DNA of 64,000 nt from Desulfovibrio ferrophilus (GTDB lineage: Bacteria; Desulfobacterota; Desulfovibrionia; Desulfovibrionales; Desulfovibrionaceae), in assembly GCF_003966735.1 (NCBI RefSeq), contig NZ_AP017378.1, positions 2,376,905 to 2,440,904 on the forward strand, given 5' to 3'. Each line of letters begins with the position of its first letter. Position 1 is the first letter of the stretch. The notes below the pieces were generated by a model that saw nothing but the letters and a program-made list of their open reading frames with translations, was not told where the DNA came from and ran no database searches. Positions 43,198-62,424 of the stretch are shown piece after piece. The translations under genes and the position numbers were made by a program.

Positions 43198-44607
43198 ATG
43201 CACATTGCCGGTTCCAAACACGACACCATTGCGGCCATCGCCACTCCTCCGGGCAGCGGAGGCGTCGGCATCGTCCGCGCCAGCGGCCCGGATGCCCTGT
43301 CCATTGCCCAGCGCCTGTTCAGTTCCACGCGGCAGAATTTCGGCGGACTGAAGCCCTACCGCCTGCATCATGGCTGGATTGACGACGAGGGCGGACAACG
43401 CCTTGATGAAGCGCTGGTCGCATACATGCCCGGCCCCGGATCATACACAGGGGAGGATGTGGTGGAATTCAACTGCCACGGAGGCCCGGCAGTACTGCGG
43501 GCAGTGCTGGAGGCCGTCCTCAAGGCTGGCGCTCGAACCGCAAGCCCCGGAGAATTCACCTACCGCGCCTTCATGAACGGACGCCTGGATCTGACCCAGG
43601 CCGAAGCCGTGGCCGAGACCATAGCCGCCCCCACCCGTGCAGGACTGACCCTGGCCCAAGCCAAGCTTTCCGGAGCACTGGGCAAACGCATCACCCAACT
43701 GCGCGACCAGTTGGAAGAACTGCGGGTCAAGCTCTGCGTGGCCGTGGATTTCCCCGAAGATGAAGTGGAATGCTTGAGCCCCGATGAATTTCTGGAAGGC
43801 ATCGGCACGGTCCGTGAGGGACTGCGCACGCTACTGGGCAGCTTCGAGCGAAACCGCTGTTGGCGGGATGGAGCACTGACCGTGCTGGCCGGACAGGTCA
43901 ATGCGGGCAAATCCAGCCTGATGAACGCACTGCTCGGGCGCGAACGAGCCATTGTGACCGACATCCCCGGCACCACACGCGATTACCTCGAGGAAGCCCT
44001 GAATCTGGAGGGGCTGCCTGTACGGCTGGTGGATACGGCCGGATTGCGCGAGACCGAAGATGCTGTGGAACGCGCCGGGCTTGAACGCTCACGCGATCTG
44101 ACCACGCAGGCGGACCTCGTACTGCTGGTGGTGGACCGCCATCGCACCCTGTCTGCGGACGATGTGGCCCTGGCGCAGAACACCGGCCCGGAAAATACGC
44201 TGGTGGTTCTCAACAAGACCGATCTCTCTGCCCCCCCCCACTCCAAGGAATCCCCCGCGCAGGAGACGGACTGGTTCGCCAAAGCCGGGTATGAAACCGT
44301 GGGCATCTCGGCCAAGACCGGCCAAGGGCTGGACGCCCTGTGCCAACGCATCCGCGAACGCATCGTGGGTGGCGGAGCAGAACCCGATGCCGGAGAAGTC
44401 GTCCCCAACCTGCGCCAGTCCCAGGCCCTGTCAGGTGCCCTGGTCGAGCTTGAAGCCCTGGAGACCGACATCCAGCAGGGCTTGCCTTACGATCTGCTGG
44501 GCGTCCGCCTGGAAACGGCCTGTTCCATGCTCTCGGAAATCACGGGAGACATCGCTCCCGCTGGCGTGCTGGAGGCCGTTTTCGGCCGGTTCTGCATCGG
44601 AAAATAG
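43198..44607 (+). CDS. mnmE: tRNA modification GTPase MnmE
   Basis: A 469-residue protein: N-terminal folate-binding domain (DTIAAIATPPGSGGVGIVRASG), a G domain with Walker A GQVNAGKS at about 232-239, TDIPGTTRD (switch), LVDTAGLRETED and NKTD, and the C-terminal CIGK motif. With MnmG it makes the cmnm5U/nm5U34 modification of tRNA. The start is ATG 43198 with no strong ribosome site; the open frame extends upstream without conserved sequence. It stands alone between divergent and convergent genes. Confidence 0.95.
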   Translation: MHIAGSKHDTIAAIATPPGSGGVGIVRASGPDALSIAQRLFSSTRQNFGGLKPYRLHHGWIDDEGGQRLDEALVAYMPGPGSYTGEDVVEFNCHGGPAVLRAVLEAVLKAGARTASPGEFTYRAFMNGRLDLTQAEAVAETIAAPTRAGLTLAQAKLSGALGKRITQLRDQLEELRVKLCVAVDFPEDEVECLSPDEFLEGIGTVREGLRTLLGSFERNRCWRDGALTVLAGQVNAGKSSLMNALLGRERAIVTDIPGTTRDYLEEALNLEGLPVRLVDTAGLRETEDAVERAGLERSRDLTTQADLVLLVVDRHRTLSADDVALAQNTGPENTLVVLNKTDLSAPPHSKESPAQETDWFAKAGYETVGISAKTGQGLDALCQRIRERIVGGGAEPDAGEVVPNLRQSQALSGALVELEALETDIQQGLPYDLLGVRLETACSMLSEITGDIAPAGVLEAVFGRFCIGK

Positions 44608-44669
44608 TTCCCGAAAGCGACCACCACTGCAGACAATACAACTGCCGATGACCGCCGCGAGAGAATCGG

Positions 44670-47600
44670 CTAGATCGCTGGCGGACGCGGAGCCAGTGAC
44701 TTGTGCGGGATGTGCACCCTGCACTCCAGACTGGGGGCAATTCTGGCCTTGGTGTTGGCCTGAATGAATGTGCTGACGTTCTTCTCCAGAAAGTCCAGCC
44801 CCTTGGGTTCGGTCACGCAAAAGACCTCGCCCCAATTGGTGGCATACAGCAACACCACATCACGAATCTCCCTGATCTCGCGATCGGTCATGAAGTTGAC
44901 CACCACGAGAGCGTGGATGACCTCTTCATCACGCAGGGTTTCCTCGATTTCGGGCTCGAAGATCTGCTTGGGGGCGAAGAACTCCGCCAGATCATCCAGC
45001 AACCTGCGCACATCAGGAGTGGAGATGGGAGCCTGAAGATTCGTGCCCCGGAACTGCTCACCAACCTCATACAGATGATTAGCCACCAGCCAGGCCAGCA
45101 AGGCCACGGGACTCCTGTCCTTATGCAGCTCCTCAAAAGGCGCCTTCCTGCTTTTGACCCCAGCGGGTTCACCCTTGGCCAACCAGATTCTGGGGGTTCC
45201 CGGCTGCCCCTCGCAAACGATCTCCAACGATTCGAACAGCCGCTTGGGTGAATCCACAAACGGGATATGCATGATCTTGCCGGGCTTCTTGTCGAAGTGC
45301 CCGAAGATCTTACGCCCCAGCTTGGTCAAATCCTGATCGGTAATCCGGGCCTCGGTATCCAGGTCGTCCACACCTTTGCGAATCTGCTCATAGGTTCCAA
45401 ACATGTACCGGGCAACCATCTGGCCCAATTCGTGGAGATCGGCAAAGGTCCTTGTCCCCTTTTCACCAGGTTTGCCCTGCTTGGGCAGACCACTGCGTTC
45501 GTCTGCGCAGTAGGGATAAAAATATTCCAGCCAACTCGTACCACACATTTCAGCCTGACGGCCCGTAGTCCTGCCTTGGGACGAAAATCCGGTCTTCTGT
45601 TCGAAGGCCATCTGCATCAGTTCCCGGGCGTCCTTGTTGGCGGTGTTCCGGTAGTGGGCCTCCACCTCGCTGAACATCACACCATAGGGATCCACACTCC
45701 AGAAATCATAGCGTCCAGCCTGAATGTTACGATTCAGTCGGTTGCACAACAGGGTGTCCGCATTGCCCCCCGCAATATACTTGTCCAGCAGGGCGAACTT
45801 CATGATGGACTTGAACGGACTCTTGAGCGCCTTGACGATCTGCCACAACGAGGCCCCAAAAAACTCATCACGCGGAATCCGACTCATGGCCCCAAGGTCA
45901 ACCACATCATCGGGGGGCAGGCTCGCGGCCGAGGCAATACGCTCCAACCCCTTGGCATAGGCCGCATCACTTGCATCGGGCGGCAGCAACCACCAAGCCA
46001 GTTTCTTGCCGCCCAAGAGGACAGCGGTACGATAGAACTCCTCCTTGAGCAGCAAGGCCTGGCTGGAACCGGCGCTTTCCTTGTCGCTGAACCCGAAGTT
46101 GTTCTCACGCACCTTGCCCATGTCCATGACGAAGAAATGCAGCTCCAGGCCGTACTCCCTGTCGGCCCAGCGCTCTATGGCCTCGAGTTTCTCCTTGAAT
46201 CCTGTGACCTTGTCAGGTTCAACCCGGGTCTCATCGAAGCAGACCCACATATCGATATCCGAATTTCGGGTCTGGGCGATGGTGCCCACGCTTCCGATGG
46301 AATAGAACGCCTCCACAAGAATGGCAGGGGCAGGCTTCTCGTCAGGCGATGGCGCAGGATAGATTCCGCCAAAATACTCCTCCAGATTCTTCAGGGCCGT
46401 GTATGTCGGAGTCCAGCCCTGAATGATGCAGGCAGGGGCGGGAATAGACGTATCCCCATCACGGATGGCACCGGCCTGCACCAGCCCCGGCAGCATCCCC
46501 AGGACCTTGGAGGCCTCAAGGCCGAGTTTTCCGGCGCACCAGTCCAACCGGCGACGGTTTGCGGCCAGAGCCAACCGCCGGTTGCGGGCGAGGTCCCGCT
46601 CATGGAGCCAATTCTGAACCAGCGAAAGCATGGCGGTCTGGCCTTCGGCCTTTGCCAGTTTGCCACTCACGGCCGTAGGCTGCTCCCTGTCTGCAACTCC
46701 GGCCACCAGGGCCTGGGCCGAACGTTCGACCTCCAGCAACAGACCCGGCTCATCGCCATGAACTCCCGGCAGGGCGCAGGCCTGGAACACGCAGCCCCAT
46801 GCCGCGGCATTCATCACTCGCGATGACGAGGCATACAAGTGCCTGAACACACAATCCGTGAACTCGACGCCATCGAAATCCGCATCCACCAGGGCAGCAT
46901 AGGAAAAATCAATTCGGCCGAATAGGCAGGAGCGCACAGTAGCGCCCTCCAGGTGCGCACCCCAGAATGACGACTCATCAAAACGGCAGCTCATCAACTC
47001 CAATCCCGACGTCAACACTCCATCGAAATGGGTTCTGGTCAGGGAACAGCGCACCAGACGAACGCCATCCAACGAACTCCCCGAGAACAGACAGCCCGCA
47101 AAATCACACTCCTCAAACACGGTATTCTTGAAGCGCGCGGCGGACAGGTCCACTCCATTCAGGCGGCATTTGACAAACCGCGTTCCTGCCAGTTTGGACT
47201 GGCGTAAATCCATGGCCCCCAGGGCACATCCCTGGAACGCCATCTTGCTCAAATCCTTACCTGGGCATTCGACATCCTTGATGATCTTGCTCTTAATCTT
47301 TGCCCCGGGTGCAAGATTCCCCACGAAGACTTGCCCTGCCGATGGACCGGCCTCGGATTCACCACCCATCATCTTCTTGACCTTTCCCAGCAACGACTTG
47401 GGCTGATCCGGGGCCTTGCGGTATGGGGCTGGTTTTTGCGGCTTGAACCGTGGCTTGTGCACCGCCCGCTTGCGCCCCTTGACGAGACCGGCGACGGCAG
47501 TGGCTATCGAACCATCAATTCCCTTCAGGGCGTTGCGCAGCCACACCGGATCCAACCGCGCCAGACACGACAGCAACGCGCCCAAAACCTCGGGCCTGGC

Positions 47601-48563
47601 CTTGGCAGGCAACGCCTTGGCAAAGCGGGCAAAATCCTGTGCACCGAGCATCAGAGCCACGCCAAGTACGCCAGAACGGGCTTCGGGAGTCGCGGCATAG
47701 ATCATGGCCAGGACCTTGGATGCCTTGGGCGAACCCAATCGGACCAGAACTCGGGCCGCTGCCAGTCGGACCTGAGGTTCCTTGTGCTTCAAAAACAGCA
47801 ACGCGGCCTTGGCCGTGCGCCCTCCGGGGTCGCTCCAGGACGGTTCCACCATGTCGAAGATGGCAGGCAAATCGTCAGGTCCGGCATATTTGAGCAGACG
47901 CAAAATATTTCCGGTCAGCGGCGCCCAGTCCAGACGCGAGGCCGTATCCGCCATATAACGGGCCTGCTCCTGATCCAGATCCAGGCGCAACAATTCCTGC
48001 AGCCAGAATCCAAATCGCCCGTGCAGCATCTCGCGCTGCACGGCAAAGGCAGGGCGTTCCCCCGACTGCGCCAATCTATCCAGGAACAACAACGCTTCTT
48101 CGGGGTCGTCGCTTTGCAGTTCATGCACCGTCTCCGTGGCCCAGGCCTGTTCCTTGGGCTGGGCCGCACGCGGAGCAGACAAGAAACGATTGGTCACAGC
48201 CAGCAGACGATTGGCAGGCAATGCCTGCAGTGCAATACGCAATTTTTCGCCGGTGATCTTGTTGGAACCAATAAAGGATGCGCACAGCAACTCGCCCAGG
48301 GCACCCTGTTCGACCAATTCCTGCAGGAGCTTGCGGATAATGGCATTGTCCCCTGACGAGGAGGCCAGTTCGGCCATGAGATAGGATAAGCGTGAGGTCA
48401 GCCGAGCGGATTCGGGATCACTGTCATCCAGTTCCTGCTGAAAGGACAGGGCCTGGTCGACAATGTTGCCCACAACTTCAAACGCATCGGTGGGCAGGTG
48501 CATGGCCCGCCACAGCTGGTCCAGGACCTGCGCCAGAGGGGAAACGGAAGAGGGCTTGACCAC
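44670..48563 (-). CDS. HEAT-repeat / pentapeptide-repeat / class I adenylate cyclase fusion
   Basis: A 1297-residue multi-domain protein. Residues about 1-350 are helical and HEAT-like (ARLDPVWLRNALKGI, AALLFLKHKEPQVRLAAARVL). A basic linker follows, with RFKPQKPAPYRK. Residues about 445-575 form pentapeptide repeats (FDGVEFTDCVF, SLDGVRLVRCSL), a right-handed beta-helix. From about 680 to the end is a class I adenylate cyclase domain with the nucleotidyltransferase signature FYSIGSVGTIAQTRNSDIDM near residues 755-772 (Ser-Asp-Ile-Asp equals the metal-binding pair). Class I cyclases are best known in enterobacteria and make cAMP. The start at 48563 is followed downstream of the HD-GYP gene by 59 bases. 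It is likely cotranscribed with it. Confidence 0.85.
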   Translation of the reverse strand: MVKPSSVSPLAQVLDQLWRAMHLPTDAFEVVGNIVDQALSFQQELDDSDPESARLTSRLSYLMAELASSSGDNAIIRKLLQELVEQGALGELLCASFIGSNKITGEKLRIALQALPANRLLAVTNRFLSAPRAAQPKEQAWATETVHELQSDDPEEALLFLDRLAQSGERPAFAVQREMLHGRFGFWLQELLRLDLDQEQARYMADTASRLDWAPLTGNILRLLKYAGPDDLPAIFDMVEPSWSDPGGRTAKAALLFLKHKEPQVRLAAARVLVRLGSPKASKVLAMIYAATPEARSGVLGVALMLGAQDFARFAKALPAKARPEVLGALLSCLARLDPVWLRNALKGIDGSIATAVAGLVKGRKRAVHKPRFKPQKPAPYRKAPDQPKSLLGKVKKMMGGESEAGPSAGQVFVGNLAPGAKIKSKIIKDVECPGKDLSKMAFQGCALGAMDLRQSKLAGTRFVKCRLNGVDLSAARFKNTVFEECDFAGCLFSGSSLDGVRLVRCSLTRTHFDGVLTSGLELMSCRFDESSFWGAHLEGATVRSCLFGRIDFSYAALVDADFDGVEFTDCVFRHLYASSSRVMNAAAWGCVFQACALPGVHGDEPGLLLEVERSAQALVAGVADREQPTAVSGKLAKAEGQTAMLSLVQNWLHERDLARNRRLALAANRRRLDWCAGKLGLEASKVLGMLPGLVQAGAIRDGDTSIPAPACIIQGWTPTYTALKNLEEYFGGIYPAPSPDEKPAPAILVEAFYSIGSVGTIAQTRNSDIDMWVCFDETRVEPDKVTGFKEKLEAIERWADREYGLELHFFVMDMGKVRENNFGFSDKESAGSSQALLLKEEFYRTAVLLGGKKLAWWLLPPDASDAAYAKGLERIASAASLPPDDVVDLGAMSRIPRDEFFGASLWQIVKALKSPFKSIMKFALLDKYIAGGNADTLLCNRLNRNIQAGRYDFWSVDPYGVMFSEVEAHYRNTANKDARELMQMAFEQKTGFSSQGRTTGRQAEMCGTSWLEYFYPYCADERSGLPKQGKPGEKGTRTFADLHELGQMVARYMFGTYEQIRKGVDDLDTEARITDQDLTKLGRKIFGHFDKKPGKIMHIPFVDSPKRLFESLEIVCEGQPGTPRIWLAKGEPAGVKSRKAPFEELHKDRSPVALLAWLVANHLYEVGEQFRGTNLQAPISTPDVRRLLDDLAEFFAPKQIFEPEIEETLRDEEVIHALVVVNFMTDREIREIRDVVLLYATNWGEVFCVTEPKGLDFLEKNVSTFIQANTKARIAPSLECRVHIPHKSLAPRPPAI

Positions 48564-48622
48564 GAACGGATTCCTTTCAGCGTTTTGGCGGAGGTTGATC
48601 GCTCGGGACAGGGCACCTGCCG

Positions 48623-49972
48623 CTAGGCGCCGTCGCCCACTGCCTCGGCATAATAATTGATCGTCTTGCTCGGACTCAGGTAGGAAAAGACCTCTCGGGG
48701 TAAGTCTTCGGGGCGGAACGTCTCAGCCACGTTCAGATCCTCTTCCACCACAAGATCCACCAGCAGGGCTTCATTCTTGGGGATTTCAGAATGGTACATG
48801 AGCACCGTGGGCCGCGCTGCATGGTCCGGGTTGACGGCCGTGACCATCCCGAATTGTCCGTTGGACAGCTTGACCACCGTGCCTGGAGGATAGACGCCCA
48901 TACTGCGAATGAACATGGCCAGAATTCTGGAATCCATCTTACCGCGCATGCTGGCATACAACTTCTTCAAGGCTTGGTGTGGAGTGGCCAGAGTTTCGGC
49001 CCGGTGATCGTTGATCAGGTTGTCGTATTGATTGACCACAGCCACGACCCGCGCCAGCGGGGAGATGGCATCACCCTTCAGGCGCTTGGGGTAGCCGGAC
49101 CCGTCCAGCAGTTCGTGATGCTGCAGCACGGCCTGTGTTGCCAGCTTGGGGAACTGCGAAAAATCGTTGACCAGCCGCGCCCCGATCAGGGGGTGTTCCT
49201 TCACATACTTCTCGGCGGCCTTGGTCATGGTGGTTGCCCCCATGCCACTCACGGCCTGCATGGGCACACGCCCCTTGCCGATGTCATGAAACATGGCCCC
49301 CAGGCCCAGAGGGTGCATGATCTCGCTCTTGAACCCCAGCCCCTTGCCCACCATCATGGAGAGCACCGTCACGTTCAGGGCGTGATAGTTCTTGGCCTCC
49401 TCGCTGGGCTTGGAACTCATCAGATTGATCATGGTGTCACGCTCGGACAGGAACGTTTCCACCAGAGAATTCACAAGTTCGGATGCCTCTTCTGCGGCCT
49501 CGCTGGAATGTCCCGAGGCCCTGCGCAAGATGGTGACCACGCTGCTCATGGTCTTGTCGTAGCGTTTTTCAACCTTGCGGAAGCGTTTACGCCGTTCCTT
49601 GTTGCGCTCGATGGTTTCGCTCTTCAAACCCAAAAGCTGCACTGACACCGGCGTCTTGCTTCCGGGCTTGGCTTTGGAGCCGGAAGTCTTACTCGCCGAA
49701 GCGCCCCCACCGGAAGTCTCGGCTGAACCGCCCCTGGCCCCACCTGAACCAGCCTTGCGCTTGTTCTTGGGTGGCAAAGGCATACGGTCGGATTGTTCCA
49801 GGACACAAATCACATGCTCAAGTCCCATCCCCTTCAGGGTCTGGAGTTGCTTATCCGTCTTGATCTTGAACTCGGATTTTCGGAATGGATTCTTTCCCTC
49901 TTCGAGCTCAAGACGGATAAACAGCCCGATCACGAGCTGCTCCACATGGATGGGATATTCCGTTTGTGCCAT
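48623..49972 (-). CDS. HD-GYP domain protein, c-di-GMP phosphodiesterase type
   Basis: A 449-residue protein. Residues about 1-55 look like the DUF3391 module often found before HD-GYP; a Ser/Gly/Lys-rich low-complexity linker (about 75-108) follows. The HD-GYP domain has HALNVTVLSMM, FHDIGKGRVP (HD at about residue 227) and HHELLDGSGYP with the GYP intact. It likely cleaves cyclic di-GMP. It is upstream of the cyclase gene on the same strand, so the two second-messenger enzymes are probably made together. Confidence 0.9.
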   Translation of the reverse strand: MAQTEYPIHVEQLVIGLFIRLELEEGKNPFRKSEFKIKTDKQLQTLKGMGLEHVICVLEQSDRMPLPPKNKRKAGSGGARGGSAETSGGGASASKTSGSKAKPGSKTPVSVQLLGLKSETIERNKERRKRFRKVEKRYDKTMSSVVTILRRASGHSSEAAEEASELVNSLVETFLSERDTMINLMSSKPSEEAKNYHALNVTVLSMMVGKGLGFKSEIMHPLGLGAMFHDIGKGRVPMQAVSGMGATTMTKAAEKYVKEHPLIGARLVNDFSQFPKLATQAVLQHHELLDGSGYPKRLKGDAISPLARVVAVVNQYDNLINDHRAETLATPHQALKKLYASMRGKMDSRILAMFIRSMGVYPPGTVVKLSNGQFGMVTAVNPDHAARPTVLMYHSEIPKNEALLVDLVVEEDLNVAETFRPEDLPREVFSYLSPSKTINYYAEAVGDGA

Positions 49973-50094
49973 AACGAGTACCGAACCGCCCAGCCCACGG
50001 ATCGCGGGCCAAAAACAGGGTTTCTGTGCTAATTAAAGGACCTACGTTGCCATCTACGTCCTGTCAATACTCTCCGCCGCAACAGGGCGGTCTC

Positions 50095-50466
50095 TTACGC
50101 CGCATCGCGGCCATCTGCAGCCTGTGCCACGGCCTTTTCATAGGATTGACCCCACTCACACATGGTACGCATCACCGGTACGACACTGGTGCCCAATTCG
50201 GTCAACGAATACTCCACCTTGGGCGGCACCTGCGGATACACTTCGCGATGCACCAGCCCATCGGCCTCCAGTTCCCGCAGCTGCTGGGTCAACATCTTTT
50301 GGGTAATGTTGGGCATGGTGCGCCGGAGCTCGCCAAAACGTTGGGTTCCATTCGTGTGCAAATACCACAGAATAATCGGCTTCCACTTGCCACCAATAAT
50401 CTGCAGCGTAAGCTCCACGGTGCAATAGTATTCCTTGTCGCCACAGCGCTTGATTTCGCATCCCAT
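50095..50466 (-). CDS. HxlR family transcriptional regulator
   Basis: A 123-residue winged-helix regulator. It begins [15 protein letters not shown] and has the family segment [14 protein letters not shown] and [25 protein letters not shown]. Members sense redox or electrophile stress, some by Cys; three Cys lie in the first 15 residues here. I set the start at the ATG at 50466 after GGAG. It diverges from the nitroreductase gene, and the region between holds the direct repeats below. Confidence 0.92.
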
Positions 50467-50531
50467 TGGCACTTCTCCTTTGGCCCATGAAGGCGTATTA
50501 TGCCGCAATCGGCCCTTCGACTTACAGTTCC

Positions 50532-50564
50532 CAAAAGGTAGCTACATGTTCAAAAGGTGCCTAC
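50532..50564. promoter_or_regulatory. Two near-identical direct repeats, likely HxlR operator
   Basis: CAAAAGGTAGCTAC (50532-50545) and CAAAAGGTGCCTAC (50551-50564) are 14-bp repeats differing at two bases, with a period of 19 bases (about two helical turns). They end immediately before a candidate promoter of the nitroreductase gene, and the first contains the palindrome GTAGCTAC. Confidence 0.65.
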
Positions 50565-50592
50565 TTGCGATTCTGTCCCTATGGCGTACAAC
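50565..50592 (+). promoter_or_regulatory. Candidate promoter of the nitroreductase operon
   Basis: TTGCGA (50565-50570), 16 bases, TACAAC (50587-50592), four of six matches in each box. It starts right after the second repeat, so a repressor bound to the repeats would block it. Confidence 0.5.
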
Positions 50593-50635
50593 AAACCCCA
50601 TGGGACAAGCAACTCCAATACTCAGGAGAAAGAAA

Positions 50636-51145
50636 ATGGATATTATCGAAGCCATCCATACCCGCCGCAGCATCCGCAAATTCACGGATCAGCCCGTGGA
50701 CGAAGCACAAGTGACCCAGTTGCTCCAGGCTGCCATGTCGGCACCCAGCGCAGGCAACGCTCAGCCTTGGCAGTTCGTGGTCATCGAGGACCGCCAGACT
50801 TTGAGCAAAATCCCCGAATTCCATCCCTACGCCGCCATGTGCCGTCAGGCTCCCTTGGCCATTCTGGTCTGTGGCGATACCAGCCTGGAAAAATATCCGG
50901 GATACTGGGTGCAGGACTGTTCCGCTGCCGTGCAGAATATCCTGCTGGCTGTGCATGGGCTTGGCCTTGGAGCCGTCTGGACGGGAATCTACCCCGACCT
51001 GCCCCGCGTGGAAGGCATGCGCAATCTGCTGGGACTGCCCGAGCAGATTCAGCCCCTGGCCCTGATTCCCATCGGTCACCCGGATCAGCCTTCGGGCAAG
51101 GTCGACCGCTTCCGCCCCGAACGCATCCACCACGACCGCTGGTAA
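50636..51145 (+). CDS. Nitroreductase family protein
   Basis: A 169-residue FMN-dependent nitroreductase. It has the signature TRRSIRKFTDQPV, SAPSAGNAQPWQFVVI, and the FMN-binding Arg and Asn residues, then a C-terminal GLGLGAVWTGIY and IPIGHPDQP. The family reduces nitroaromatics, quinones or flavin substrates. The ATG at 50636 follows AGGAG at seven bases. It begins an operon with the next two genes, under likely control of the divergent HxlR regulator. Confidence 0.93.
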   Translation: MDIIEAIHTRRSIRKFTDQPVDEAQVTQLLQAAMSAPSAGNAQPWQFVVIEDRQTLSKIPEFHPYAAMCRQAPLAILVCGDTSLEKYPGYWVQDCSAAVQNILLAVHGLGLGAVWTGIYPDLPRVEGMRNLLGLPEQIQPLALIPIGHPDQPSGKVDRFRPERIHHDRW

Positions 51146-51155
51146 AGGAGTTTTC

Positions 51156-51449
51156 ATGCCTCAGATCGCCGTTACCGCCCTGCTGACCGTCAAGCCCGGC
51201 CAGGGGGCAACACTGGAAACAATCCTCGCCCCCCTGGTCGCCGCAACCCGCGCCGAACAGGGCTGCCTGAGCTACATCCCGCATCGCACCGCCGAGGCGG
51301 ACCGCTACTGCATTCTGGAACAATGGGAGAGCCAGGAACATCTGGATCGACATCTGGCCACCGCGCACATCGCGGCCTTCCGCGATGCCTCAGCCGCAAT
51401 CATGGAATCCGCTGATGTCACCGTTTGGACGGCCTTTGATCCCACCTGA
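51156..51449 (+). CDS. ABM-domain putative quinol monooxygenase
   Basis: A 97-residue antibiotic-biosynthesis-monooxygenase domain (Pfam ABM), of the YgiN type. It has VTALLTVKPGQ, EQGCLSYIPHRT and ILEQWESQEHLDRHLAT. Such small dimeric proteins handle quinones or aromatic compounds. Ribosome site AAAGGAG is in front of the ATG, ten bases after the nitroreductase stop. The pairing supports a quinone/electrophile detoxification role. Confidence 0.9.
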   Translation: MPQIAVTALLTVKPGQGATLETILAPLVAATRAEQGCLSYIPHRTAEADRYCILEQWESQEHLDRHLATAHIAAFRDASAAIMESADVTVWTAFDPT

Positions 51450-51590
51450 CGCCAGGCCAAATCAAATATGCTCCAATGGCGACCAAGCTCCTCGACTTGT
51501 TGACAACGTCCGTCGATTGGGCTTTCTCGTGGGGAGCACTCCACAACCCGCAAGCCCTCTACCAACATAGAACCCAAGGATGCACGCCTC

Positions 51591-52724
51591 ATGTCCACAC
51601 TTTTTGATTCCGTTCGCGTAGGCTCGATGGAGCTTCCCAACCGGTTCGTACGTTCCGCCACATGGGAAGGCATGGCCGGAGAAGACGGCTCATCTTCCTC
51701 AAAACTCAATGCGATGATGGGCCACTTGGCCAAGAACGAAATCGGGCTGATCATCACCGGTCACGCCTATGTCTCGCCCGAGGGCCAAGCCGGTCCTTGG
51801 CAGCTGGGCATCCATACTGACGAGATGATCCCGGGACTGACGGAAATGACTGCCAAAGCCCACCAGGCTGGCGGAAAGATCTGTTGCCAATTGGCCCACG
51901 CGGGCAATCGCGGAGCCCAGGACCTGACAAATCTTCAGCCTTTCGGCCCCTCGGACAAGGACTTCAGGGGCAAGGCCCGCGACTGCAAGGCCATGACCGC
52001 AGACGACATCCAGGCCGTGATTCAGGCCTTTGGCAACGCCGCCTCCCGCGCCAAGCAGGCCGGGTTCGATGCCGTACAGATTCACTCGGCCCACGGCTAT
52101 CTGCTGGGCCAGTTCCTCTCCCCCTTCTACAATCTGCGCGACGACCAGTACGGTGGCAACCGCGAGAACCGCGAACGCCTGACCATGGACGTCTACACGG
52201 CCGTACGCGAAGCCGTGGGCCCGGATTACCCGGTACTGATCAAGCTCAATGCCCACGACTACATGCACGACCTGGAAAATTCGTACACCCTCGACGACAT
52301 GCTCTCCATCTGTGCCCGGCTGAACGAGGCTGGCATCGATGCCATCGAGTTGTCCGGCGGCACCATCGACTCCCGCCAGAACATCCCCTCGCGCATGGGC
52401 ATGATCAAACGCGACCGCGAAGGCTTCCATCGCAAGGCCGCCGAGGCCTACAAAAAAACAAACAATGGCGCGCCACTGATGCTGGTGGGCGGCATCCGCT
52501 CCTTCGAGAAGGCCGAGCAGTTCGTCAACGATGGCATCTGCGATTTCATCTCCCTGTGCCGCCCGCTAATCCGCGAGCCAAACCTCATCAAGCGCTGGAA
52601 AAGCGGTGATCACGCCAAGGCCGAGTGCATGTCCGACAACCTGTGCTTCAAGCCTGTGCGCGCCGGCGAGGGCCTGTACTGCCTGCTCAAGAAAAAGCAG
52701 TTGGAAAACAAGAAAGAAAAATAG
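51591..52724 (+). CDS. Old-yellow-enzyme family NADH:flavin oxidoreductase
   Basis: A 377-residue TIM-barrel flavoprotein. It has the OYE features LPNRFVRSATWEGMA, QLAHAGNRG, the HxxH active-site pair in QIHSAHGYLLGQFLSP and the GGIRSFEKAEQFV phosphate site. The C-terminus reads AECMSDNLC...GLYC, similar in place to the cluster motif of iron-sulfur-linked relatives, but one Cys of the usual CxxCNxC is replaced by Asp. It is third in the operon begun at 50636, after a 141-base gap. A terminator follows. Confidence 0.9.
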   Translation: MSTLFDSVRVGSMELPNRFVRSATWEGMAGEDGSSSSKLNAMMGHLAKNEIGLIITGHAYVSPEGQAGPWQLGIHTDEMIPGLTEMTAKAHQAGGKICCQLAHAGNRGAQDLTNLQPFGPSDKDFRGKARDCKAMTADDIQAVIQAFGNAASRAKQAGFDAVQIHSAHGYLLGQFLSPFYNLRDDQYGGNRENRERLTMDVYTAVREAVGPDYPVLIKLNAHDYMHDLENSYTLDDMLSICARLNEAGIDAIELSGGTIDSRQNIPSRMGMIKRDREGFHRKAAEAYKKTNNGAPLMLVGGIRSFEKAEQFVNDGICDFISLCRPLIREPNLIKRWKSGDHAKAECMSDNLCFKPVRAGEGLYCLLKKKQLENKKEK

Positions 52725-61386: not shown

Positions 61387-62424
61387 TCAGGTACCAACAA
61401 CCCGGCGTTTGGGCGCGTCTTTTGCAGCCTTACGCTCGAAGAGTTCTTCATCGGCCTTCTTGAGCAGCAGAGCAGGTGAGGTCACGGCCTCATCTTCGGT
61501 GGAAGAGACGCCAAAACTGAACCGCACGTAACGATCGATATCCGGCACCGGGGACATCTCGAAGAAACGCATCACCCGTTCCATAAACGCGCAGGCCTGT
61601 TTGCGATCTGTGTTGGGCAGGATCACCACAAACTCATCCCCGGCAAAACGGGCGCAGGCATCAATCTTACGGGCCATCTTCTGCAAACGACGAGAGAAAT
61701 AGACCAGCATCGCATCGCCCGCATCGTGCCCCAGAGTATCATTGACCTTCTTGAAATCATCCATATCCACAAAGGCCAGAGCCAAACTATCCCCATAGCG
61801 CTGAGAACGCAAAAACTCCTCGTGCAACCGCTCCTCCATGGCCCTGCGATTCAGCAGCCCCGTCAGGGAATCACGCGACGCCAGCCGAGCCAGACGCTCG
61901 TGCGCCGTGACATTGGACAGGCACAGCGAAACCTTGATGGCCAACTGCGAAAGGAGTGTGGTGTCCATGTCCGGGCTGAAACGGTCCGAACGGGTATCGG
62001 CCTGATTCAGACAGCCCACCAGTTTGCCATCCAGAATCAGCGGAGCCACGGCAATGGAACGAAGTCCCTGTGGGGCAGGAGTGGGGAGCAGCGCATCAAA
62101 CAGATGCAAGGAACGATTTTCCAGAATCGGACTCTTGCGGTCCTGCAGCAGAGAGAGTGCAGCATCGCCATCCACCAGGGCCAACTGCTCGCGCAGTTCA
62201 CCCGAAGCATCCAGATTGTCCAGCATTGCCGCCAACTCACCATCGCGGATGATGGATATCCAGACATGGGGAATATCGAATTTGGTTTTGATCAGGGAGA
62301 CCAGACGCGCGAACAGAGCTTCAAAATCCAGGATGGTCAAGACTTCCGTCTCGATCTCGAAGAATTTTCGGCAGATCTCTTCATTGCGCTTCAGAACCGC
62401 ATAAATCTGCTTTGCGTCGCTCAT
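61387..62424 (-). CDS. GAF-type sensor with GGDEF diguanylate cyclase domain
   Basis: A 345-residue protein. The first ~170 residues resemble a DUF484/GAF sensor (FDIPHVWISIIRDGELAAML, SIAVAPLILDGKLVGCLN). The C-terminal GGDEF domain has DSLTGLLNRRAM and the active loop AGDEF at about residues 258-262, where the first Gly is Ala, a change tolerated in active enzymes. An RxxD inhibition site was not confirmed. It makes cyclic di-GMP, if active. Confidence 0.88.
   Translation of the reverse strand: MSDAKQIYAVLKRNEEICRKFFEIETEVLTILDFEALFARLVSLIKTKFDIPHVWISIIRDGELAAMLDNLDASGELREQLALVDGDAALSLLQDRKSPILENRSLHLFDALLPTPAPQGLRSIAVAPLILDGKLVGCLNQADTRSDRFSPDMDTTLLSQLAIKVSLCLSNVTAHERLARLASRDSLTGLLNRRAMEERLHEEFLRSQRYGDSLALAFVDMDDFKKVNDTLGHDAGDAMLVYFSRRLQKMARKIDACARFAGDEFVVILPNTDRKQACAFMERVMRFFEMSPVPDIDRYVRFSFGVSSTEDEAVTSPALLLKKADEELFERKAAKDAPKRRVVGT

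Follow-up and report, generated by a model that had tools for sequence, protein, structure and literature searches.

A class I adenylate cyclase carried on a solenoid and beta-helix scaffold and paired with an HD-GYP gene: a candidate link between c-di-GMP and cAMP in Desulfovibrio ferrophilus and its relatives

The gene of a scaffold-bearing class I adenylate cyclase of Desulfovibrio ferrophilus lies just downstream of a gene for an HD-GYP protein, and we judge it somewhat better than an even bet (about 0.55), going by sequence, that the two products form a module in which the scaffold couples c-di-GMP to cAMP. Throughout the order, class I enzymes appear for the most part to be mounted on a docking scaffold, and in one clade the cyclase gene is bound up with that of a c-di-GMP-type protein. 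This pairing with a c-di-GMP-type enzyme hints at a built-in link between two messengers, and two purified proteins would suffice to test for direct contact. Features are placed in Table 1 by their coordinates in the window, which is the entire 64,000-nucleotide stretch of DNA that was analysed. The cyclase reading frame starts with GTG and is free of internal stops; a ribosome-binding-like AAAGGAA, read by eye, precedes the GTG by 7 nt.

Table 1. Positions of the cyclase, its parts and the partner gene in the window
Feature	Window coordinates	Strand	Basis
Scaffolded class I adenylate cyclase, 1297 aa	44670..48563 (stop included)	minus	ORF, Pfam, alignment with E. coli CyaA
N-terminal alpha-solenoid, HEAT-like, residues 1-365	47469..48563	minus	AlphaFold2, sub-cut-off HEAT_2, structural matches
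Pentapeptide-repeat beta-helix, residues ~422-594	46782..47300	minus	Pfam, model, structural matches
PF12633 Adenyl_cycl_N, nucleotidyltransferase core, residues 661-858	45990..46583	minus	Pfam
Catalytic motif G757-S758 ... S768-D769-x-D771-x-W773	46245..46295	minus	Alignment with E. coli
PF01295 Adenylate_cycl, residues 886-1230, first 340 of 601 profile positions	44874..45908	minus	Pfam
C-terminal tail with conserved TNWGE motif	44673..44873	minus	Alignment
DUF3391 + HD-GYP protein, 449 aa	48623..49972	minus	Pfam, HDIGK and HHELLDGSGYP motifs

Among class I cyclases the enteric type is the best known. Both Pfam families of the class are recognized in the window protein, PF12633 at 146.3 bits and PF01295 at 114.8 bits (cut-off 27 in each case), and its catalytic region is homologous to that of E. 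coli K-12 CyaA, sharing the motifs GS...SDxDxW, EYFGASLW/EFFGASLW and W-x-E in the C-terminal block. The residues that we take to be catalytic in class I enzymes (S103, S113, D114, D116 and W118 of E. coli) are all five retained, at positions 758, 768, 769, 771 and 773, and each is present in 115-117 of the 118 order-level rows. The family matches and these residues together bear out the class I identity proposed in a preliminary description of this DNA; the protein is predicted to be a class I adenylate cyclase capable of catalysis, and we infer that it makes cAMP. It is very improbable that the window cyclase is idle and the protein only a scaffold or nucleotide sensor, given the five intact residues and their retention in nearly all relatives, even though relatives with a dead cyclase do occur, both inside the HD-GYP clade described below (three genomes) and outside it (L051 and the second copy in L052). 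The NCBIfam equivalog cut-offs for class I cyclases (PRK09450 models) are missed, the best score being 372.6 against 802 bits, and by sequence the window cyclase is a homologue, not an equivalog, of these models. Searches of PDB sequences with the window cyclase part or with E. coli CyaA yielded no class I cyclase. A large model, interdomain arrangement included, has a pTM of 0.82; pentapeptide and other beta-helix proteins filled the rows of the fold search made with it, so that this search bears little on the cyclase fold. Eight class III cyclase places are found in the same genome, and cAMP therefore need not depend on the window cyclase.

The alignment with E. coli CyaA stops at residue ~667 of 848, so that the window cyclase has no counterpart of the final ~180 residues of CyaA, the C-terminal regulatory region; conversely, the window protein has ~650 additional N-terminal residues, made up of solenoid and beta-helix. 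Without the enteric C-terminus, the enteric mode of control is unlikely and regulation through the scaffold becomes plausible, and in the mechanism proposed here the solenoid and beta-helix would replace that control region. (The enteric C-terminal region is not needed for class I membership, and short class I relatives also do without it.) Short class I cyclases of other Desulfobacterota (about 630-710 aa) have the same C-terminal end as the window protein in the two that were aligned, L063 and L065, but lack its pentapeptide run; Nitrospinota loci, compared by length and run only, are similarly short and also have no run.

The N-terminal part was modelled with AlphaFold2 (residues 1-440; mean pLDDT 82, pTM 0.72) as unbroken helix pairs up to residue ~365. 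Its assignment as HEAT is weak by sequence in the window protein, since HEAT_2 scores 22.6 bits, below the Pfam cut-off of 27.7; in the homologue L053 the same family is over its cut-off, at 32.5 bits. Matches to HEAT/ARM structures are middling (the best, Kap121p, with Z 12.7 and rmsd 6.9 over 326 residues), and Foldseek returned no match to the solenoid model at E<=0.001. On the model, this part is an alpha-solenoid of helix pairs, of the HEAT or another alpha-solenoid type. Within its own genome, the HEAT part finds only the paralogue at E<1e-3. In the second scaffold element Pentapeptide_4 scores 66 bits, over its cut-off (best stretch, residues 438-513), and the model shows about 35 units of five residues wound into a beta-helix, which matches HetL and other pentapeptide proteins with Z up to 24. 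The fold is held in common with HetL, Qnr, AlbG and MfpA (Z 20-24) with no implication of common function; those are separate proteins, whereas the window beta-helix is an internal domain. Pfam and the models thus confirm that HEAT-like, pentapeptide and class I cyclase parts are joined in one 1297-residue protein, as first described.

The notion that this architecture is unusual is not supported by a survey of the order. A pentapeptide run (operationally, at least 8 pentapeptide-like units by a pattern of our own) is present in every one of the 109 full-length order-level homologues longer than 1100 aa that were retrieved, compared with 8 of 2180 shuffled copies. By sequence, the class I cyclases of the genomes sampled from the order are usually of the pentapeptide-bearing form, and the architecture also occurs outside the order, within the same phylum. 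A literature search, with most subscription journals outside its coverage, turned up nothing on the architecture or the gene pair.

Upstream of the cyclase, on its strand and without overlap, the HD-GYP gene stops 59 nt short of the cyclase start; the HD-GYP product carries both HD-GYP motifs (Table 1). HD and HHE are kept in all 17 aligned partners. An HD-GYP gene stands upstream on the same strand in 23 of the 118 order-level cyclase rows, in 20 of them at 6-105 nt. All 23 cyclases fall in a single clade of 26 (FastTree support 100), whose remaining three rows are truncated at contig ends; none of the 92 rows outside the clade has an HD-GYP gene upstream, and 88 of these show at least 1.5 kb of upstream sequence. 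Six other neighbours in the window were tested, and each occurs in at most 4 of the 26 clade stretches. Co-occurrence of DUF3391 was dropped as a marker: this domain is in 169 of 297 genomes, so that an orthologue-specific profile was needed. The profile separates 27 genomes (at least 594 bits, two of them less certain; 14 supplied its own rows and 13 did not) from the next score, 465. In all 27 the scaffold-cyclase follows directly on the HD-GYP orthologue, bar an intervening ORF in L096 (gap 861 nt; the gap in L050 is 285 nt), only the cyclase start being visible before the contig end in two; none of 20 next-tier HD-GYP proteins has a scaffold-cyclase nearby. An apparent HD-GYP-cyclase overlap in L040 (a 1658-aa ORF) was rejected, since it arises from an upstream start in the same frame, whose reading extends across an HD-GYP ORF that is separate.

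By sequence, the pairing shows functional linkage, not contact. It puts forward the HD-GYP gene, overlooked in the preliminary description together with the paralogue at another place in this genome, as the first specific candidate for the protein contacts which that description had supposed to control the cyclase. Co-transcription would fit the arrangement; a scan of 44400-50700 for sigma-70-like promoters found no site anywhere and thus says nothing on this point. In the mechanism that we favour, the scaffold would, in the HD-GYP clade, work with the protein encoded just upstream. That protein would bind, and probably hydrolyse, c-di-GMP; docked on the solenoid, it would relay the cellular c-di-GMP state to the cyclase and would in this way tie cAMP synthesis to c-di-GMP turnover. 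Physical contact and this direction of control are what we infer from the gene pair. That an HD-GYP protein can act as a c-di-GMP switch in this group is shown by DvhD of Desulfovibrio vulgaris, in which SQ replaces HD, the double His is lost and c-di-GMP is not hydrolysed (PMC13090378). DvhD and the window partner both have an HD-GYP domain; unlike DvhD as described there, the partner keeps HD and HHE and has DUF3391.

A less probable but serious alternative is co-regulation without contact: the operon would set c-di-GMP low and cAMP high, for example in a motile switch, and the scaffold would bind some other protein or structure. Tight same-strand spacing with no overlap would suit this, as would the occurrence of the scaffold in clades without an HD-GYP neighbour (the paralogue of this genome included), which implies that HD-GYP is not the only or original reason for the scaffold. 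There is also a precedent in Pseudomonas putida, where high c-di-GMP is reported to lower cAMP by repressing cyaA transcription, the mechanism in P. aeruginosa being different (PMC8125075). Against co-regulation, the HEAT part is more conserved within the HD-GYP clade: at equal cyclase identity its identity is 0.26 vs 0.18, 0.30 vs 0.21, 0.69 vs 0.43 and 0.71 vs 0.58 (clade vs other) in four bins of at least 13 clade pairs each, the pairs not being independent; two further bins, of just 2 clade pairs each, give 0.35 vs 0.23 and, reversed, 0.32 vs 0.37.

Three genomes of genus code g5, probably Halodesulfovibrio, provide a further argument. Their cyclases, placed inside the HD-GYP clade, have lost catalytic residues, while HD-GYP gene and scaffold are kept. 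The cyclase gene is intact, the dead domain is under purifying selection, with a dN/dS of 0.11-0.32, and the adjacent HD-GYP protein retains HD and HHE. In these genomes the pair can no longer be explained by joint regulation of cAMP synthesis. These genomes, a natural loss-of-catalysis control, also bear on an improbable proposal, that the HD-GYP protein degrades the cyclase product, the two being a synthase/phosphodiesterase pair for cAMP or another cyclic nucleotide: a partner with HD and HHE is kept where the cyclase is dead. Altered specificity might be read from the substitution of GFP for GYP in 13 of the 17 aligned partners, and the six PDB sequences listed for the partner include a phosphodiesterase specific for 3'3'-cGAMP (5z7c), but 4r8z, a chain that the PDB names cyclic di-GMP phosphodiesterase, has GFP in the alignment as well. 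Under the favoured coupling through the scaffold, the dead cyclases would have some non-catalytic role tied to c-di-GMP turnover. More tentatively, there may be one c-di-GMP-gated complex of HD-GYP protein and scaffold-cyclase, with the scaffold as its conserved core and the cyclase as a replaceable output, making cAMP in most lineages of the clade and serving as a dead nucleotide sensor or allosteric arm in the three g5 genomes. The other g5 genomes drawn (G076, G128, G130 and G144) lack any DUF3391 match, and the pair can therefore be dispensed with.

The second copy of the scaffold-cyclase in the D. ferrophilus genome lies between gpmA and mutY. The genes upstream of ten other cyclases are of five unrelated kinds (Lgt, pterin binding, RNA methyltransferase-like, phosphoglucomutase-like and sugar transferase) or, in five cases, are without a Pfam match, and there is no second signalling partner upstream among those ten. 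A gpmA-cyclase fusion in L033 spans a stretch of X and was not counted as real; gpmA does stand upstream of several of the cyclase paralogues.

The scaffolded class I adenylate cyclase of the window is a real open reading frame, as the preliminary description had it, and is preceded by a gene for a DUF3391/HD-GYP protein, of the phosphodiesterase type that handles c-di-GMP (table). Its C-terminal part matches two adjoining Pfam models that together make up a class I cyclase (PF12633, 146 bits; PF01295, 115 bits). In alignment with E. coli K-12 CyaA, the residues that we take to be catalytic (S103, S113, D114, D116 and W118) correspond to S758, S768, D769, D771 and W773, so that the family assignment proposed from the sequence holds. 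(The protein falls short of the NCBIfam equivalog cut-offs.) Its alignment to E. coli CyaA (848 residues) ends at position ~667, so that the C-terminal ~180 residues of the enteric enzyme have no counterpart in it; the ends of two short class I enzymes from the phylum were compared as well and lie at the same point.

Features referred to in the text; coordinates are those of the window or of the fetched locus named
Feature	Coordinates	Strand	Details
Scaffolded class I cyclase ORF	44670-48563	minus	1297 aa; initiation codon GTG, with AAAGGAA 7 nt ahead of it
DUF3391/HD-GYP gene		same as cyclase	449 aa; 59 nt upstream of cyclase
HxlR-type regulator, likely nitroreductase and old-yellow-enzyme genes	50095-52724		near the HD-GYP gene
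Possible diguanylate cyclase	61387-62424	minus	about 11 kb upstream of the HD-GYP gene
Scaffolded class I paralogue in the window genome	L003:4684-8529		1281 aa; contig C1 (about 405 kb); catalytic residues present
Scaffolded cyclase, catalytic residues lost	L051:4764-8735		full length; GQ replaces GS, no DxD
Scaffolded cyclase, catalytic residues lost	L052:3799-7935		full length; second copy, N at D114 counterpart

The pentapeptide beta-helix of the preliminary description is borne out: the repeats exceed the Pfam cut-off and occupy residues ~422-594 as a modelled beta-helix (Z ~24 against HetL; residues 98-1297 modelled with 41 relatives, pLDDT 82.9, pTM 0.82). The accompanying HEAT claim stands only in weaker form. 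HEAT_2 scores 22.6 bits in the window protein, below the cut-off of 27.7, but is above it in the homologue L053, and residues 1-440 are predicted (AlphaFold2, 19 relatives included; pLDDT 82) to form a solenoid of helix pairs up to residue ~365. This model resembles HEAT/ARM solenoids with middling Z (best 12.7) in structural matching and has no Foldseek match at 0.001, so 'HEAT-like' is as much as we accept for the predicted fold.

PF01295 is matched in 104 of 297 Desulfovibrionales genomes and in 50 of 395 Desulfobacterota genomes drawn (some genomes are in both draws). Fetching every place from the order search yields 118 cyclase rows: 109 full-length and >1100 aa, 3 shorter full ORFs and 6 cut by contig ends. 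A pentapeptide run is present in all 109 long rows (8 of 2180 shuffles). The counterparts of S103, S113, D114, D116 and W118 are retained in 116, 117, 115, 116 and 116 of the 118 rows, respectively; the departures are one cut row (L218) and the dead copies in L051 and L052. These two form a group in the tree, and neither has an HD-GYP gene beside it; that of L052 is divergently oriented to an adjacent live copy. In a wider scan of one genome per species (84,980 species; at least 567 loci, of which 80 were kept), the run is found in 46 of 47 rows >1100 aa and in 4 of 33 shorter ones. Some long loci outside the order are named Desulfobacter vibrioformis, Desulfobacula, Desulfotignum or Desulfamplus, and Pfam domains were confirmed for two of the long loci (L163 and L161). 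Judged from these sequence matches, the architecture is widespread in Desulfobacterota. No genome of the genus coded g3 is among the 104, though many g3 genomes have DUF3391 matches.

An HD-GYP gene lies upstream in 23 of the 118 rows, all within one clade of 26 (support 100; FastTree, 118 rows and E. coli CyaA); in the other three clade members (L232, L235, L242) the contig end cuts inside the gene. The gap is 6-105 nt in 20 of the 23, 285 nt in L050 and 861 nt, with an intervening ORF, in L096. (The overlap in L040 is an artefact of the start chosen.) Outside the clade the gene is upstream in 0 of 92 rows, with at least 1.5 kb upstream visible in 88 and less in 4; two weak HD-GYP matches on the opposite strand, 7 kb off, were left uncounted. 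The same picture emerges from a quick IQ-TREE run on 84 rows: in a clade of 17, 15 were labelled as having the gene, which was then found in the remaining two (L040, L050) as well. Each of six further genes near the window cyclase gene occurs in at most 4 of the 26 clade stretches (reach about 5 kb).

The converse holds from the HD-GYP side. A profile built from 14 paired HD-GYPs and run on the 297 order genomes scores at least 594 bits in 27 of them (14 of these the profile's own rows, 13 not), the next score being 465. All 27 HD-GYP genes are followed closely by a scaffold-cyclase homologue, with one ORF between in L096; 22 of these cyclases come from the clade rows, three from genus g5, and two (G268, G296) show the cyclase start before running off the contig end. 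Probably two further genomes belong here: G205, with a partial HD-GYP at a contig edge (427 bits over 356 positions) and its pair already among the 23, and G182, whose HD-GYP is split over two frames and whose contig ends in no more than a cyclase fragment of 12.6 bits. With them the count is 29 genomes and 12 genus codes. Among 20 chosen next-tier HD-GYPs (473 to 339 bits, rescored) none has a cyclase homologue, at least 5 kb downstream being visible in 19 and 0.5 kb in L265.

In the three g5 genomes (G142, G170, G285) the HD-GYP gene is followed 6 nt later by one whose product (1341-1429 aa) has pentapeptide repeats, PF12633 above cut-off and PF01295 below; such pairs (L245, L246, L247) were missed by the Pfam search, so PF01295 counts underestimate the group. 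GA stands in place of GS, and SPLDVW, APLDIW or GPFEVW in place of SDxDxW; the EFFGASLW block has lost its conserved lysines. All three fall inside the clade in a quick tree (clade support 100, inner position 87) on a long shared branch (1.26). Their HEAT parts are 25-27% identical to that of the window protein; for five live members of the clade from other genera the range is 25-35%. The dead domain has dN/dS of 0.11, 0.27 and 0.32 in three pairs (Nei-Gojobori; dS near saturation) and is therefore kept as protein. The adjoining HD-GYPs retain HD and HHE. Elsewhere, these genomes encode a further class I cyclase whose motifs are live (L041, L078, L082). On this sequence reading, then, the gene pair outlives catalysis. 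DUF3391 is not matched in the other drawn g5 genomes (G076, G128, G130, G144), so the pair can also be absent.

Where cyclase identity is matched, the HEAT parts of clade members resemble each other more than those of the remaining cyclases do: identities in four bins are 0.258 v 0.176 (159 and 2146 pairs, which are not independent), 0.302 v 0.208 (49 and 654), 0.689 v 0.432 (21 and 194) and 0.713 v 0.581 (13 and 123). Of two bins holding 2 clade pairs apiece, one points the same way (0.351 v 0.234) and the other the opposite way (0.316 v 0.373). The within-clade excess is smaller for the pentapeptide part. This pattern fits a clade-specific binding partner of the solenoid. All 17 aligned HD-GYP partners keep HD and HHE together with the conserved H of the YHALNV-type motif, and 15 have DG; 13 of the 17 read GFP in place of GYP (GYP in the window, L047, L040 and L034), as does PDB chain 4r8z, named a cyclic di-GMP phosphodiesterase. 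An HD-GYP protein of the sulfate reducer D. vulgaris without these ligands is a c-di-GMP receptor (PMC13090378). Thus, whether the partner is enzyme or receptor, c-di-GMP is its likely ligand.

Gene linkage and scaffold constraint are shown by these comparisons. The module probably couples c-di-GMP to cAMP synthesis, and docking of the HD-GYP protein on the HEAT-like solenoid is the likeliest way in which it would do so. We put this at slightly better than even (about 0.55, lowered from 0.57 because the pair is dispensable in one genus and the converse test is partly on the profile's own rows). The scaffold is probably older than the pairing, since other clades carry it without HD-GYP; there, and in the window-genome paralogue, the partner would thus be another one. 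A search of the open-access literature turned up neither class I cyclases that carry pentapeptide or HEAT domains nor this HD-GYP-cyclase gene pair.

The paralogue is flanked by gpmA and mutY, and gpmA is upstream also in L039, L046 and L077. The window genome has 8 class III cyclase places and 16 cNMP-binding places. The HxlR-type regulator (Pfam), whose companion genes were read by eye, is present in only 3 of the 26 clade stretches. The possible diguanylate cyclase was recognized by eye from an AGDEF motif.
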